Assembly (NCBI GenBank): GCA_035530615.1
Contig: DATKUL010000002.1
Location: 248,001-312,000, forward strand
Direction of reading: 5' to 3'
DNA: 64,000 bases
Origin: Candidatus Paceibacterota bacterium
Lineage (GTDB): Bacteria; Actinomycetota; Actinomycetes; Nanopelagicales; Nanopelagicaceae
Part shown: positions 55,049 through 62,133 of the stretch, piece after piece
Position numbering within the stretch: the stretch's first letter is position 1
Layout of the letters: every line of letters starts with the position of its first letter
The notes under the pieces: generated by a model
What the model saw: the letters and a program-made list of their open reading frames with translations, nothing else
What the model was told of the DNA's origin: nothing
Databases searched by the model: none
Translations under genes and position numbers: made by a program

Positions 55049-57095
55049 CTCCGACGCGGTCCAAGTACGGCAAGATTCCACCAAGAGTGAGTGGCCATCC
55101 AGCGCCAAGGAGCATGCAGAGATCTATCTCAGCAGGGCTCGAGACGACTCCTTCATCGAGCATCATGCGAGCCTCTTCCGCGAGTGCATTGAGAGCGCGC
55201 ATCCGCACTTGCTCGGCAGAGGAGGGTTTGTCGCCTTTCTCCACCAGCGCGAGTGCAACAGGATTCGGATGATTCTTTCCATCCTCACCCTTTACGTAGA
55301 AGTTCCTCACTCCTTCTTTCACCAGGCGCCCCATTGTCGGTGAGATCCGATAGCGCGGTCCAAGATTCTTATTCAGTATCTCGGTCACATGGAGTGCAAC
55401 CCCCGGACCAACGAGTCCGAGCAACTCAAAGGGGGTCATTGGGAAGCCAATACTGCGCATTGAATTATCCGCAACCTCTACCGGTGTTCCTTCATCAATA
55501 GCATCAGTGATCTCACCCATGAAGCGAATCAGGAGTCGGTTGACGACAAATCCAGGGGAGTCCTTAGTAATGACCATTGTCTTCTTGAGTTCTTTGCCGA
55601 TGTTGACCGTTGTCGCCGTTGTGGCGTCATCAGTCTTGTTGGTTCGCGCGATCTCAAGCAGCGGCATAACCGCAACCGGATTGAAAAAATGGAATCCGAT
55701 GACTCTCTCGGGATGTTCCAACCCCTGTGTCATTGCTTCCACGCTGAGTGAAGAAGTGTTGGTAGCAAGTACGCACTCTGGCGAAACAATCTTTTCTAGC
55801 TTCTTAAAGAGTTCTTGCTTGAGGGCAAGTTCTTCGAAGATGGCTTCGATGACGAAGTCAGCGCCAGCAAAGGCACTTTGATCGACCGATCCCGATACGA
55901 GTGAGATCAATCGACGTGCTGTCTCTTCGGTGAGCCGCTTCTTCTCCACCAATTTATTGATCTCTGAATGGACCCAAGCCACGCCCTTATCCACACGGGC
56001 TTGATCCAGATCAGTCATCACCACCGGGCATTTCAGATTACGAACCATGATCAGGGCCAGTTGGGATGCCATGAGACCAGCGCCAACGACACCGACTTTG
56101 GCAACCTTTCGTGCAAGGGCGGCCTTCGGTGCACCTTCCACTTTCTTCCGTTTCTTTTGGATGAGATTAAAGGCGTAGAGAGATGCACGGAGGGCATCGC
56201 TCATCGTTAAATCAGCAAGTGCTTGATCTTCGGCGTCAAAACCTTCGCTACGTGTCGCAGTGCGAGCACCGGCGATGAGTTGAAGAGCACGTTGTGGCGC
56301 GTCAATCTCAGCGCCGCCGTACTTCTTGAACGCGGCCGCTTGTCCTGTCGCAATCGCCTTGTCCCAATTGGAATCTTGGGAGTAGTCCGTTCTTTTAATC
56401 TTCTTCTTTCCGCTCAGTACGTCTGCGACAAAGCCAACGGATCGTTCGAGATAGTCAGCAGGTTCGTACACCGCATCGACAACTCCCAGGGCAAGCGCAT
56501 CTTTGGCTTTCAACATCGTGTTGTTGTTCAGGGGATTGAGAACGATTACCTGTACTGCACGTTCTGGTCCAATCAACTTGGGAAGCAACGTTGCGCCGCC
56601 CCATCCGGGTACTAGGCCAAGAAAGACCTCAGGCAATCCAGTCATTGCTGTGGTTGCGAGAGTTCGATAATCGCAGTGAAGTCCGAGTTCGAGTCCACCG
56701 CCTAGTGCAAGACCGTTGATAAAACCAAAGGTTGGAATCCCGCACTCACCGAGCCGGCGGAAAACATCATGACCGAGTTTGCCAATTCCCAGAGACTGTG
56801 AACGCTCACTGATAGATCCAAGCCCGCGCAAATCTGCACCCGCAGCAAAGATGAATGGTTTTCCGATAACGGCTATCGCATCGGGCTTACGCGAGACGGC
56901 CTCAGAGATCGCGGCATCGAGGGCGAGAAGTGATTGCACGCCAAAAGTATTTGGTCGATTGAAGTCTTCTCCGTTGTCAATCGTAATGAGAGCGAGATCG
57001 CCTTTGAATCCAAAGGCGGACAGGTCTACATTGCGGACAAATGCCTGTGTCACGACTTCATCTGGTGCGCCAGCGGGAACGTGTAGGTCCGTCAT
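54990..57095 (-). CDS. Multifunctional fatty-acid oxidation protein (FadB-like)
   Basis: A 701-residue fusion of enoyl-CoA hydratase (N-terminal, with [11 protein letters not shown] and [13 protein letters not shown]) and 3-hydroxyacyl-CoA dehydrogenase ([11 protein letters not shown] from about residue 310, then [14 protein letters not shown]). It performs the two middle steps of beta-oxidation. The ATG at 57095 follows GGAGCC; upstream in-frame codons lie inside the thiolase gene, which ends 1 base before. Its 3' end overlaps dxs tail to tail. Confidence 0.92.
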
Positions 57096-57096
57096 T

Positions 57097-58284
57097 TTAT
57101 TTGGCTCCATTCCAGTGCGGGTTCTCCCAGATGACCGTGCCACCCATTCCCAATCCGATGCACATGGTCGTGATTCCATAGCGAACTTCTGGGTGCTCTT
57201 CGAATCCTCGCGCAAGGTTGAGCATGAGGCGCACTCCTGATGATGCAAGCGGGTGTCCCACAGCTATCGCTCCGCCATACGGATTCACCCGCGCGTCATC
57301 ATCTGCAATTCCGAAGTGGTCAAGGAACGAAAGTACTTGGATGGCGAATGCTTCATTGATTTCAAAGAGTCCGATATCTGAAATGTTCAATCCGGCTTTT
57401 GATAAGGCTTTTTTTGTCGATGGAATCGGCCCGTAACCCATGACCTCAGGTTCTACCCCCGCAAAGGCAAAAGTAACCAACCGCGCTTTGATAGTGAGAC
57501 CTAATTCGATCGCCTTCTCTTCACTGGCCAAAATTGCTGCCGTTGCTCCGTCATTGAGACCTGCAGAATTTCCCGCTGTGACTCGACCCGCTGGGCGGAA
57601 AGGAGTTTTCAAACCTGCCAGCGCCTCGAGAGTTGTGCCGGGGCGGGGAGGTTCATCCACTGTTGCAATACCCCAACCTAGTTCGGCGCTGCGAACAGCC
57701 ATCGGTATGAGATCGCGCTGGATTTTGCCTGCTTCATAAGCCTTTGCAGTTTTCAACTGTGAATTCAACGAATATCTATCTGCACGCTCGCGTGTGAGGT
57801 GAGGAAATCTGTCATGTAACCGCTCGGCGGTATTACCCATTGCGAGCGCATCACTGTCAACGATTTTCTCAGCGAGGTAGCGCGGATTGGGATCTATGCC
57901 ATCTCCAATCGGGTGATTGCCCATATGTTCAACGCCACCGGCAATTGCAATGTCGTAAGCCCCAATGCCGATGGCTCCAGAGATTGTGGTGACGGCCGTA
58001 AGTGCGCCAGCACACCAACGATCAACGGAATAACCCGGAACAGTGTTAGGCAGTCCGGCCAATAAAGAAACGCTACGACCGATATTCATTCCTTGGTCAC
58101 CCGTCTGTGTTGCGGCAGCAATGGCAACATCATCGATCTGGTCAGGGGAGACTTTCGGATTTCTCTCCAGCAGCCCACGTAGGACACGCACCATCAGATC
58201 ATCGGCACGCGTTCCAGCGTAAAGGCTCCCGGCCTTTCCAAAAGGGGTTCGAACTGCATCAACAAGGACGACTGATTTCGACAT
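57097..58284 (-). CDS. fadA: Acetyl-CoA acyltransferase (thiolase)
   Basis: A 395-residue thiolase, last step of beta-oxidation. The nucleophilic Cys is in VDRWCAGALTA (about 90), and the C-terminal GHPLASSGVR and CIGLGMGG give the catalytic His and Cys. The ATG at 58284 has AGAGGGA 6 bases upstream; an ATG at 58290 directly abuts this site. With the fadB-like gene it forms a fadAB operon controlled from the region with a TACTC/GAGTA repeat. Confidence 0.93.
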   Translation of the reverse strand: MSKSVVLVDAVRTPFGKAGSLYAGTRADDLMVRVLRGLLERNPKVSPDQIDDVAIAAATQTGDQGMNIGRSVSLLAGLPNTVPGYSVDRWCAGALTAVTTISGAIGIGAYDIAIAGGVEHMGNHPIGDGIDPNPRYLAEKIVDSDALAMGNTAERLHDRFPHLTRERADRYSLNSQLKTAKAYEAGKIQRDLIPMAVRSAELGWGIATVDEPPRPGTTLEALAGLKTPFRPAGRVTAGNSAGLNDGATAAILASEEKAIELGLTIKARLVTFAFAGVEPEVMGYGPIPSTKKALSKAGLNISDIGLFEINEAFAIQVLSFLDHFGIADDDARVNPYGGAIAVGHPLASSGVRLMLNLARGFEEHPEVRYGITTMCIGLGMGGTVIWENPHWNGAK

Positions 58285-58333
58285 ATGCATTCCCTCTACT
58301 CAGGCTGGATCGCAGATCACGGTGATAGAAGGT

Positions 58334-58345
58334 TACTCGTGAGTA
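58334..58345. promoter_or_regulatory. Operator-like repeat upstream of the fadAB genes
   Basis: TACTC-GT-GAGTA in the 124-base gap before the thiolase gene, overlapping a possible minus-strand TAACCT -10. It may bind a TetR-type fatty-acid regulator. Confidence 0.4.
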
Positions 58346-58414
58346 GGTAAAAAAGGTACCCACGACTTTTCTCACTGTATCTCCGAGACTATTGGCAGAC
58401 TATTGCCACCGCCG

Positions 58415-59257
58415 CTATCTTTTTGAACTATTCTTCGAAGCTCCCCTTGAGAGAGTCTTTGAGAACGATGGTGCCAGGTAGGTTGACAGAATGGTGACGA
58501 GGTAGACGAACCAGACACCTACCTGAAGCCAGGTGCTGGTGGTCGAGAAACCAATCGAACCCGAAAGAATACTGGCAATGAAGGAATCGGGGTTTAACCA
58601 TGAATCGATATTCCATGCCACAGAATCCAATCCAGGCAGCCATCCGGTCTCTTGCAGATCGCCAATTCCGTGGGCGAGAACACCGGCAGCAACAACAATC
58701 AATGCGATGCCAGTAATTTTGAAGAATTGGTTCAGGTCAAAGTGAACGGTCTGTCTATACATTAAATATCCAAGGCCAATCGCGGCAGCAAGTCCCAGAA
58801 CCAATCCCACGGAAGGACCAAAAGAAGATTTCACGGTCGTGAAATTGGTATAGATAAAGAGGGAGGTTTCAATTCCCTCACGGCCAACCGCGACAAATGC
58901 AGTGATTGCCATCGCGAGAGAGCCCATCGTGACTGCGCTATCGACTTTCTTTTCAAGTTCACGTTTGAGATTTCGGGCGGTGCGCTTCATCCAGAAAACC
59001 ATCCAGGTCACTAATGCCACGGCGACCACGGAGAGAATTCCCGCAAATGCTTCTTCGGCACCCGGCGTCAATTCACTGGAAGTAAAGCTCAAGATTGCGC
59101 CCAACCCCAGACTCAAGACAATGGCGACTAAGACACCAATCCAGAGGGGAGTGCGCAGGTGAGATCTGTTGGTTTTGACCACATAGGCCAGGAGGATGCC
59201 GATGATGAGGGCAGCTTCCAGGCCCTCGCGCAGTGCGATTATAAAAGTACTCAACAT
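58415..59257 (-). CDS. FTR1-family iron permease (EfeU-like)
   Basis: A 280-residue high-affinity iron permease with seven predicted spans and two REGxE motifs (ALREGLEAA at about 9-17 and GREGIETS in the fourth span) that carry iron through the membrane. The EfeO and EfeB partners are not nearby, so it stands alone. The ATG is 6 bases from TAAATT, a leaderless start, and the promoter -35 lies inside a long inverted repeat, pointing to repression by a dimeric regulator, plausibly iron-responsive. Confidence 0.9.
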   Translation of the reverse strand: MLSTFIIALREGLEAALIIGILLAYVVKTNRSHLRTPLWIGVLVAIVLSLGLGAILSFTSSELTPGAEEAFAGILSVVAVALVTWMVFWMKRTARNLKRELEKKVDSAVTMGSLAMAITAFVAVGREGIETSLFIYTNFTTVKSSFGPSVGLVLGLAAAIGLGYLMYRQTVHFDLNQFFKITGIALIVVAAGVLAHGIGDLQETGWLPGLDSVAWNIDSWLNPDSFIASILSGSIGFSTTSTWLQVGVWFVYLVTILSTYLAPSFSKTLSRGASKNSSKR

Positions 59258-59263
59258 GCGAGC

Positions 59264-59310
59264 AATTTAACGCTCAATGTCGAATTACGCAACTCAAGTG
59301 TTGCGTAATT
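59264..59310 (-). promoter_or_regulatory. FTR1 promoter with operator over the -35
   Basis: Minus-strand TTGCGT (59287-59292), a 17-base spacer and TAAATT (59264-59269), 6 bases from the ATG. The inverted repeat AATTACGCAAC-N6-GTTGCGTAATT (59283-59310) covers the -35. It does not match the DtxR/IdeR consensus. Confidence 0.65.
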
Positions 59311-59321
59311 AATCTCACTCC

Positions 59322-60644
59322 CTAGGCCTCAGAGATCTCCACGTTAGCGGGCAGTGGTTGCGGCTGGGGGATCGGTTCACGCTCCAACAGGGCGTGTGCG
59401 AGGAGCGGGGCGACGATGGAGATCTGCCAGGGACGGGCTCCACGCTCTAGCAGGGCGTCCCGGACTCGTTCTGTGTGAAGTGAGGTGGTTGAACCTTCTG
59501 GCGGCGACCAGCAGATACGGCGGACGAGATCTGGGGAGATGAGATTTTCGGCCGGAATGGAGAGCGATTCCGCCTCCTTCTCGATGCTGGCACGGGCATG
59601 GGACAGGGGCGCAAATTTATTGGGAAACTTCTCCCGCCAGATCTTTATGGGGGGCATGGAATCTGCCTCGATTCTCACGGGCGGCCACTGATTTTCCGGG
59701 GTTCCTTTACCCGCTTCTATGGCGCGCAGCCAGTTCGGGGCATGTTCAAACCAGCGCGCTCGCGCACCCATTGGTCGCAAAGCCTGCTCCATCTCCTTTC
59801 GGTTCTGGGGGATACGAACCGAAAGTTCTATCAGGGCGGCGTCGGAGAGCAACTTTCCCGGTGCAATGTCCAGGTGGCGCGCCAGCGTGTCACGTTCGTG
59901 CCAAATTGACTTAATAATTGCCAATCGTCGCCGTTCTTTGATCTTGTGAATTCCAGAAGTTCTTCGCCAGGGATCCTTCCTGGGCTCTGGCATCGGTGCA
60001 TTGAGGATGGCCTTAAATTCTTGATCAGCCCATTCCAATTTTCCTTGGATTCGTAAAGTATCGTTTACTTTCTCGCGCAGTTCGATGAGTAATTCGACAT
60101 CCAAGGCGGCGTAGTTGAGCCAATCATGCGGCAACGGTCTCGTGGACCAGTCCACAGAACTGTGTTCTTTTGCGAGTGATACTCCGAGCAGACTTTCAAC
60201 GAGAGCGCCCAGTCCAACGCGAGGTAGTCCGGCAATCCGTCCCCCCAATTCTGTGTCAAATAGTTTTGATGGGATGAGTCCAACATCGCGTAGACATGGA
60301 AGGTCCTGGGTACTCGCATGCAGAATCACTTCGTCGCTGTTGAGAAGTTCGTTAAGGGCCTCAAAAAGTGGATGCACATTTTCTGGTCCCTGTGATTGAA
60401 ACGGGATTGGATCGATCAGATGCAACCCACCGTCGGTTCGTTTTATCTGAATGAGATAAGCACGGGAGCTGTATTTGTATCCGGATGCTCGTTCAGCATC
60501 AATAGCGAATGGTCCCGAACCTGTCGCCAGGGTGGCGATAGCGCGTTCGAGTTCGGACTCGGTGGTTATTGCGGGAGGCGTTCCATCAGCGGGGACCAGT
60601 AGTGGAATTGCTCCTTCTGGCTCTTGTGAAGTTGTCTCTGTCAT
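59322..60644 (-). CDS. rnd: Ribonuclease D
   Basis: A 440-residue 3'-5' exonuclease of the DEDD group involved in tRNA 3' maturation. D49 and E51 (FAIDAERA), the HASTQDLPCL segment and YAALDVELL give the catalytic acids; an HRDC domain covers about 215-290. It follows the DUF3000 gene by 3 bases, a conserved actinobacterial pair. Confidence 0.93.
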   Translation of the reverse strand: MTETTSQEPEGAIPLLVPADGTPPAITTESELERAIATLATGSGPFAIDAERASGYKYSSRAYLIQIKRTDGGLHLIDPIPFQSQGPENVHPLFEALNELLNSDEVILHASTQDLPCLRDVGLIPSKLFDTELGGRIAGLPRVGLGALVESLLGVSLAKEHSSVDWSTRPLPHDWLNYAALDVELLIELREKVNDTLRIQGKLEWADQEFKAILNAPMPEPRKDPWRRTSGIHKIKERRRLAIIKSIWHERDTLARHLDIAPGKLLSDAALIELSVRIPQNRKEMEQALRPMGARARWFEHAPNWLRAIEAGKGTPENQWPPVRIEADSMPPIKIWREKFPNKFAPLSHARASIEKEAESLSIPAENLISPDLVRRICWSPPEGSTTSLHTERVRDALLERGARPWQISIVAPLLAHALLEREPIPQPQPLPANVEISEA

Positions 60645-60647
60645 CGA

Positions 60648-61232
60648 TTAGCGCGATCCACGGGGCGGTGGTTTGATAACTGAGATGCCCTCGGGGATTG
60701 GAGTGAGTCCTGCGACTTCAGCAAGGAGTGTGCACCAGCCATCAATGTGAGTCTCGATCCCTTCACTTTTGGCGAGCACTGGCGTCCATGATGCACGGAT
60801 CTCGATCTCGGCTTCGTCATTGCGAAGTGACAATTTTCCGAAAGATGAACTGGCCACTCGTGTCACGGTTCCACTCGCTGCCACATACTGACAACCTGCC
60901 AGGGTGAGAGATTCAAGCAACCAATTCCAGCCAACTTCCGGCAGGAGAGGATCTTCCTGCATCATCATGTCTACATCGGCGCGAATGTAGGTGACGCACC
61001 TGTAATCACCTTCCCAAGTATCTTGCCCACCTGGTTCGTGTAGGAGTACAAAACGACCGGATGCAATCTCGTCTTCTTCATCACCTGAAAGACCGTTGCT
61101 GACATCAGCAGAGAAGGCAAATGCATGCGTTGCCAATTTTTGTGGGGCTGGAACTTCTTCAAGAACTATTTCTGCGCGTGGAACGAATGAACGTAATGTC
61201 TTTACAACGGCCTCAAAATCTCGCGAATCCAC
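60648..61232 (-). CDS. DUF3000 family protein
   Basis: A 194-residue conserved actinobacterial protein of unknown function. The N-terminal PRAEIVLEEVPAPQKLA and the later FVLLHEPGGQ mark DUF3000. The GTG at 61232 is chosen because TACATT (61239-61244, minus strand) lies 6 bases upstream, matching leaderless starts elsewhere in the window; the frame stays open for another 70 codons but runs into the divergent gene. It is always close to rnd. Confidence 0.85.
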   Translation of the reverse strand: MDSRDFEAVVKTLRSFVPRAEIVLEEVPAPQKLATHAFAFSADVSNGLSGDEEDEIASGRFVLLHEPGGQDTWEGDYRCVTYIRADVDMMMQEDPLLPEVGWNWLLESLTLAGCQYVAASGTVTRVASSSFGKLSLRNDEAEIEIRASWTPVLAKSEGIETHIDGWCTLLAEVAGLTPIPEGISVIKPPPRGSR

Positions 61233-61293
61233 TACCTCAATGTAAGGAAAATTACGACAGAAAGGTGGGAGGCGGGGCGGTAACCTAGTCCAC
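61233..61293. promoter_or_regulatory. Divergent leaderless promoters (DUF3000 / DMT transporter)
   Basis: TACATT on the minus strand (61239-61244) 6 bases from its GTG, and TAACCT on the plus strand (61281-61286) 7 bases from its GTG. The start codons are 61 bases apart, so the two -35 regions coincide. Confidence 0.5.
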
Positions 61294-62133
61294 GTGGCCC
61301 TACTTCTTGCACTTTTCTCCAGCGTTCTCTGGGGCAGCGCTGATTTTGAAGGCGGCAGGATGGCCAAGAAATTTCCGGCCATTGCTGTCACGGGAGTATC
61401 GCAAGCATTTGGACTTGCGGTAGGCATGGGACTCGTTCTCATTACGGGCGAATGGCGCGCTCCTGCCTTTGGCGCCCAGGGTTACTTCTTTCCGGCGGTT
61501 ATCGCTGGAGTAACTGGCTACCTTGGGCTCGTGGCCCTCTATGCAGGGCTGGCAACCGGAAGAATGGGAGTCGTTTCGCCAATAAGCTCGCTGTGCGCAA
61601 TTATTCCAGTGACGGTCGCTCTGGTAAGTGGAGAACATCTTCCCGTGAGCACAGGTATAGGAATTGCAATTGCTCTAATTGGAGCGTTCTGCGCGAGTGG
61701 GCCGGAAATTTCACAGGGACTTCCATTTCGACCGGTTCTTCTTGCCATTGGCGCAGCTGTTGGATTTGGCACGGCACTCTCTTTTATGGCACGTGGTTCG
61801 GTTTCAAGCGCTCTCATGACTATGGTGATGATGCGTATCACAACACTTTTTATCTCGATCGGACTTGCTGCAAAGTACCGAACTACAGGGGGATTCGCTA
61901 AGAGCGATCTTCCCCGGTTGATTTACATTGGTGCGGCAGATTTCTTGGCCAATGTTCTACTTGGGGTTGCATCGACGAAAGGTTTAGTTTCCATTGTTAT
62001 GGTTTTAGGTTCTCTATTTCCGATCATGACTGCAGTTCTCGCGTATAAGATTTTGCATGAAAGATTACATCGGATTCAGTACGCCGGGATTGTTCTGGCG
62101 ATCGCTGGGGTGGCGATCATCTCAGCTTCCTGA
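61294..62133 (+). CDS. DMT-superfamily (EamA-type) transporter
   Basis: A 279-residue membrane protein with ten predicted spans in two EamA repeats; FSSVLWGSADF at the N-terminus and LFPIMTAVLAYKILHERL near the end are typical. These proteins usually export metabolites; substrate unknown. There is no ribosome site before the GTG, in line with a leaderless mRNA. Confidence 0.88.
   Translation: MALLLALFSSVLWGSADFEGGRMAKKFPAIAVTGVSQAFGLAVGMGLVLITGEWRAPAFGAQGYFFPAVIAGVTGYLGLVALYAGLATGRMGVVSPISSLCAIIPVTVALVSGEHLPVSTGIGIAIALIGAFCASGPEISQGLPFRPVLLAIGAAVGFGTALSFMARGSVSSALMTMVMMRITTLFISIGLAAKYRTTGGFAKSDLPRLIYIGAADFLANVLLGVASTKGLVSIVMVLGSLFPIMTAVLAYKILHERLHRIQYAGIVLAIAGVAIISAS

Follow-up and report, generated by a model that had tools for sequence, protein, structure and literature searches.

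In cyanobacteria, the oxidised holo form of SufR binds CAAC-N6-GTTG and represses suf, as far as the available text of two reports goes (PMC8593673, PMC13421787), and S. avermitilis SufR binds the same sequence over its -10 according to the accessible part of another (PMC11995493). Such excerpts also give C203, C216 and C244 as the ligands of M. tuberculosis SufR (PMC6034842) and a different ligand spacing for the cyanobacterial protein (PMC13421787). In these partial texts, SufR is called dedicated to the suf locus (PMC8593673), its other target genes are said not to be known (PMC11995493), and a further target named in a cyanobacterium is ftrC, which encodes a ferredoxin-thioredoxin reductase unrelated to FTR1 (PMC13421787). 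For corynebacteria, the available portion of one study proposes a network in which sufR itself is under DtxR (PMC6701010). An iron importer under SufR is not described in the accessible parts of PMC11995493, PMC8593673, PMC6034842, PMC7058544 and PMC13421787 or of the open-licence literature, nor in those of PMC9045647, PMC8586213, PMC7356878 and PMC6701010; as a SufR target, an iron importer appears new on what these sources offer. The locus described here carries a SufR-type site in front of an iron permease gene.

The inverted repeat and the FTR1 promoter

The window, that is, the whole stretch of 64,000 nucleotides that was analysed, contains the following features.

59283 to 59310, no strand: inverted repeat with arms AATTACGCAAC-N6-GTTGCGTAATT, a candidate SufR operator of FTR1, kept upstream of FTR1 in 50 of 50 genomes of the family
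59290 to 59303, no strand: core CAAC-N6-GTTG of the repeat, equal to the published SufR site
59287 to 59292, minus strand: -35-like hexamer TTGCGT within the right arm of the repeat, as read from the sequence
59264 to 59269, minus strand: -10-like hexamer TAAATT, 6 nt 5' of the FTR1 start codon, from which a leaderless transcript is predicted
58415 to 59257, minus strand: FTR1/EfeU iron permease of 280 aa (PF03239, NF041756)
59322 to 60644, minus strand: ribonuclease D-like gene (rnd), upstream of FTR1 and outside the operator's function (TIGR01388)

The permease is matched by PF03239 at 192 bits (cut-off 25.3) and by NF041756 at 321 bits (cut-off 255), and the rnd product by TIGR01388 at 130 bits, under the model's cut-off of 299. 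The original prediction of a 28-base inverted repeat over the FTR1 promoter is confirmed as an observation: the repeat is present as described, over the likely -35. On the minus strand it reads AATTACGCAAC-ACTTGA-GTTGCGTAATT, 25 nt 5' of the FTR1 start codon (59257), and the inverted-repeat search gives two arms of 11 nt (59283-59293 and 59300-59310), 100% complementary and 6 nt apart. The -35-like TTGCGT (59292-59287) is followed on this strand by 17 nt, TAAATT (59269-59264), 6 nt and the ATG (59257-59255). Perfect 11-nt arms with a spacer of 3-10 nt occur three times in the 64 kb window, versus once in ten mononucleotide shuffles together, and the repeat taken alone, relatives aside, is only mildly unusual; it goes beyond chance because it is conserved in all 50 relatives with FTR1.

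The sample comprises 100 genomes, the own genome and 99 relatives, with 61 in the own family and 39 outside it. The motif search that had been proposed across the genome and its relatives finds the whole repeat at a single place in the 2.16 Mb genome at three or fewer mismatches, and far from being absent upstream of FTR1 in close relatives, the site is present there in 50 of 50 family genomes. These 50 belong to the 74 genomes in which FTR1 was matched. Every family FTR1 site keeps the left arm, TTACGCAAC, intact; in the right arm, 35 have no change and 15 differ at one or two positions. Outside the family, none of the 20 genomes read has the site upstream of FTR1. At two or fewer mismatches anywhere in the genome, the site occurs in 58 of the 61 family genomes versus 3 of the 39 others, and a reversed control pattern at two mismatches occurs once each in six family genomes and in no genome outside the family. 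Many of the matches in named genomes are Ca. Planktophila or Ca. Nanopelagicaceae, among them the FTR1 loci L223 and L237 from complete Ca. Planktophila genomes, and the family is probably Ca. Nanopelagicaceae, the acI freshwater actinobacteria.

A sample of the class, searched at one mismatch or fewer, has the site in 28 of 28 genomes of the own family and in 11 of 268 others. Eight of these 11 belong to one genus (f20/g53), one (G193) has the site before FTR1, and the remaining two (G111 and G221) have no recognised iron gene adjoining it. The eight genomes of f20/g53 (L339-L346) carry a similar one-mismatch palindrome of another shape, with a flank common to the four read; no recognised iron gene lies beside it in these four of the eight, and in L343 a gene of the geranylgeranyl-reductase family adjoins it.

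The repeat was further claimed to cover a full leaderless promoter, which holds for the hexamers, their spacing and the conserved -10 and fails for the consensus scan. The latter returned two sites in 57000-62000, neither at the FTR1 promoter, with 3.4 expected in shuffles, and it missed the FTR1 promoter because TTGCGT matches the consensus at 3/6 positions and TAAATT at 4/6. The promoter assignment is nevertheless likely from the -10 and the spacing conserved in relatives. In 45 of the 50 family FTR1 genes, the distance from the site to the start codon is 27-28 nt, from which 17-18 nt between -35 and -10 follow; it is 29 nt in one and 49-71 nt in four. For TAnnnT, 6 nt before the start codon, conservation across the 45 aligned relatives is 96, 96 and 98% at the T, the A and the last T.

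Within 1.5 kb upstream of FTR1, no rnd was found in four relatives (L004-L007). The site is thus present without rnd as the upstream gene and therefore belongs to FTR1. In five others (L009, L011, L012, L013 and L015), the whole operator is embedded in the rnd reading frame, at its 3' end.

Sites at sufR and beside other iron importers

The view that the repeat is of no known iron-regulator type did not hold, since its core equals the SufR site of the literature, and 18 of the 38 family genomes read have the extended sequence at their sufR promoter. Such a sequence, GAATTACGCAAC-N6-GTTG, marks sufR promoters of other family genera, and a second site in many family genomes reads TTACGCAAC-N6-GTTGTGAAA. 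Among the 13 second sites read in the family, 12 are located where a frame containing CQHHCPIAHV begins (in L067 only the N-terminal part, at a contig end), and in the 11 loci other than L067 a SufB-like frame follows that gene; the SufB query from L062 scores 733 bits with TIGR01980 (cut-off 346), and SufD of L062 is also over its NCBIfam cut-off. The thirteenth (L070:3506-3529, in G035) is a weak, two-mismatch site away from sufR, between a divergent ABC ATPase frame and one that by eye encodes an O-acetylhomoserine sulfhydrylase-like protein; it is either chance or a sulfur-supply target of SufR.

A sufR gene was matched in 99 of the 100 genomes, weakly in three of them (G015, G083 and G092). 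The own genome has one SufR match, with sufB 30 nt behind sufR on the same strand (L108). Its product (G000:C2:600253-600954) has a winged HTH (HTH_24, 23.5 bits, cut-off 21.9) and matches a single SufR model, TIGR02702, at 81.6 bits (E 6.1e-23), under the cut-off of 178.8 of this model, which was built on cyanobacterial SufR. Cysteines in the arrangement CX12CX27C are present in 30 of 30 family SufR copies checked.

The sufR start was read in 38 family genomes, a 39th (G032) having no upstream DNA. GTTGTGAAA is present at all 38, and the exact CAAC-N6-GTTG at 18, mostly with the same GAATTACG flank as the FTR1 site. The left half has diverged in the other 20, including the own genome and all eight read of the own genus, so that the FTR1 and sufR sites there share one half fully and the other partly; in the own genome TTACGACAC stands where the FTR1 site has TTACGCAAC. 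The SufR identification consequently leans on the sister genera and the published core. The layout at sufR in the family is as in S. avermitilis, with the core over a -10, AACAAT, and its last G at the start point, and the left half, which differs from genus to genus, may vary because the site overlaps this -10. The sufR operator would be asymmetric and perhaps weaker than that of FTR1. It also overlaps a likely leaderless GTG start at L108 and 37 other family loci. The own-genome sufR operator fits ACACT-N5-TGTGA, which we take to be the motif of M. tuberculosis SufR. Outside the family, 3 of 13 sufR upstream regions (G078, G084 and G098) match TTACGCAAC-N6-GTTGTGAAA exactly, and the others match less or not at all.

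The pattern TTACGMMACN6GTTGYGWAA has no other places in the own genome at zero mismatches than the FTR1 and sufR sites. At three or fewer it has 6 forward and 12 reverse matches versus 9 and 8 for the reversed control; a wider SufR regulon in this genome was rejected, the extra matches being noise by these counts, and the places with one and two mismatches fall within reading frames (L178 and L179).

FTR1 was not matched in 11 of the 61 family genomes. In five of these (G027, G036, G047, G052 and G053; loci L072, L073, L076, L077 and L075), the site precedes the binding protein of an ABC importer, with an rnd-like gene as its immediate neighbour in L073, L075 and L076, an arrangement also seen in the window. 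For the L073 protein, the match to ferric-iron-binding proteins of the PDB has an E value of 6.6e-75; the NCBIfam models that this protein matches are for other substrates, with scores under their cut-offs. In G030, a one-mismatch site (L074:3301-3324) lies before an NRAMP transporter (PF01566), with the end of a frame, nucleoside-hydrolase-like by eye, on its opposite side. The single site of G059 is at its sufR, and G058 has a site away from sufR. No site was found at two or fewer mismatches in G003, G041 and G060; on direct reading, G041 and G060 have sites at sufR.

An exact-match scan of a collection of named genomes gave at least 120 loci, a part of the total. Among the 120 matches listed, 112 are beside an iron importer, namely 85 beside FTR1 and 23 beside the binding protein of a ferric ABC importer, both counted with the gene start within 300 nt of the site, and four beside others: a siderophore-type ABC ATPase (L203, Arthrobacter; score under the cut-off of its best model), a Peripla_BP_2 protein (L215, Promicromonosporaceae), a FecCD permease (L242, Demequina) and FeoB (L270, Timonella). 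Also among the matches listed, L274 has an IdeR box nearby and no gene identified, six (L202, L239, L258, L259, L272 and L303) have no recognised iron gene adjoining and look like chance, and L212, next to lexA, is truncated by a contig end; lexA-like frames also neighbour the ferric ABC loci L072 and L077. Five contigs of metagenome-assembled genomes titled Bifidobacterium breve (L222, L246, L253, L261 and L267) have the site before a ferric ABC binding protein, an arrangement shared with freshwater Nanopelagicaceae, and the label is probably wrong.

Proposed SufR control, IdeR and rival readings

The repeat is very probably a SufR operator through which holo-SufR represses FTR1, so that iron supply follows Fe-S status. 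A SufR dimer with [4Fe-4S] on TTACGCAAC-N6-GTTGCGTAA would sit over the -35 of FTR1's leaderless promoter, where it would block RNA polymerase. Upon iron shortage, or destruction of the cluster by oxidants or NO, apo-SufR would leave the operator, FTR1 and the suf operon would be switched on together, and iron import and cluster rebuilding would continue until SufR is refilled. We infer the binding of SufR, the repression, its direction and the Fe-S response from the sites and their setting. The original interpretation is thereby partly supported: an operator at FTR1 stands, and the distinct repressor for iron uptake that was suggested is most likely a known Fe-S sensor, SufR, with an apparently new target.

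The expected regulator of an actinobacterial iron importer would be IdeR, for whose box we take the consensus TWAGGTWAGSCTWACCTWA. PF02742 (DtxR/IdeR) is matched in 4 of the 61 family genomes, all of genus g5, versus 20 of 23 genomes elsewhere in the class; the search found no such protein in the other 57, the own genome included. Boxes were counted at three or fewer mismatches within 250 bp of FTR1. They are present in 14 of the 20 genomes read outside the family, where the 250 bp beyond have none in any of the 20, and in the family in 3 of 50, which are the three g5 genomes with FTR1. The own genome has none by this count, in agreement with the observation that the repeat is unlike the DtxR/IdeR box, and an IdeR/DtxR box as the identity of the repeat is ruled out by the box search and the missing PF02742 protein.

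In the three g5 genomes, the SufR box comes first and the IdeR box begins 38 nt further on, counted from start to start, giving a composite FTR1 promoter with the SufR box on the -35, the IdeR box on the -10, TAGGTT, and a 17-nt spacer. Among the 120 matches listed, an IdeR box at three or fewer mismatches follows the site in L203, L241 and L274, with 39, 40 and 35 nt between the two starts. Weaker IdeR boxes are seen by eye next to the SufR box at iron importers of L310, L270 and L242, outside the family. The idea that g5 is the earliest branch was rejected, as a SufB tree of 34 rows puts it inside the family, next to g14 (93/84); many forks of this tree are open, and the outside genome G085 is drawn among family rows, so that IdeR may have been either kept or regained in g5.

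That SufR represses the iron importers of the family, and is the main link where IdeR has been lost, is the simplest account; the signal for importer control would then be Fe-S sufficiency. It seems rather probable that in this family SufR replaced IdeR on iron import, with Fe-S state in place of free Fe2+ as the signal, via or alongside a composite SufR -35/IdeR -10 promoter. Since g5 and certain other actinomycetes have such composites, actinobacterial iron importers may in general have SufR as a second key.

The own genome encodes two FUR-family proteins, one of which could be an iron sensor and a possible further regulator, and the likeness of the palindrome to a SufR site is partial, with SufR binding predicted and the left half of the sufR operator diverged in the own genus; another DNA-binding protein, of the FUR family or an unrecognised repressor, could thus use the palindrome. 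This is improbable, as the exact core lies at sufR itself in those 18 family genomes. Family genomes have between 0 and 3 FUR-family copies, against a nearly constant site, and the Fur or Nur box has a different sequence from a SufR-type site. The core, moreover, equals the SufR site in the available text of three papers (PMC11995493, PMC8593673, PMC13421787). Binding of SufR as an activator, or for fine-tuning only, is a still less probable reading: the binding mode is deduced, and activators can also bind near a -35, but this site overlaps the -35 itself and SufR is described as a repressor in the accessible parts of PMC11995493, PMC8593673, PMC6034842 and PMC13421787.

The repeat could also be taken for a transcription terminator or mRNA 3'-end stem of rnd, whose stop codon is 11 nt from it, and its RNA fold is somewhat more favourable than those of shuffles (z -2.28; 4 of 200 shuffles equally good). 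This is the least probable of all, for the stem is not followed by a T-run on the rnd strand and the repeat is absent from the results of the terminator scan, as the original prediction had already held in setting aside a standard terminator. The changes confined to the right arm in 15 of 50 sites break the pairing, the site also stands before ferric ABC importers, and it occurs both in relatives with no rnd found upstream and inside the rnd frame. An rnd terminator or attenuator is rejected on the missing T-run, the relatives without rnd and the unpaired arm changes.

Comparison with described iron and Fe-S regulators

If SufR controls FTR1 and other importers as proposed, it would take its place among the Fe-S sensors in charge of iron supply. 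This would explain how iron is managed without IdeR in abundant freshwater bacteria, and would provide a case of regulator replacement in which the dual-site form is still living.

The family resembles the SufR/suf systems of Synechocystis, S. avermitilis and M. tuberculosis in the CAAC-N6-GTTG core and in having sufR before sufB with a site, exact in 18 of the 38 family genomes read, at its own promoter, and its CX12CX27C spacing is that of C203, C216 and C244 as given in the available text on M. tuberculosis SufR. It differs from them in where the site is best conserved, namely at an iron importer away from the suf locus. The predicted role is the same as that of IdeR/DtxR, a repressor on actinobacterial iron-importer promoters including FTR1, whereas the protein, the box and the signal are different, and the IdeR gene and box are confined in the family to g5. 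RirA and IscR are Rrf2-type Fe-S sensors controlling iron genes in proteobacteria. As with them, a sensor of Fe-S clusters would set iron uptake here, although SufR belongs to an unrelated regulator family and recognises an unrelated box.
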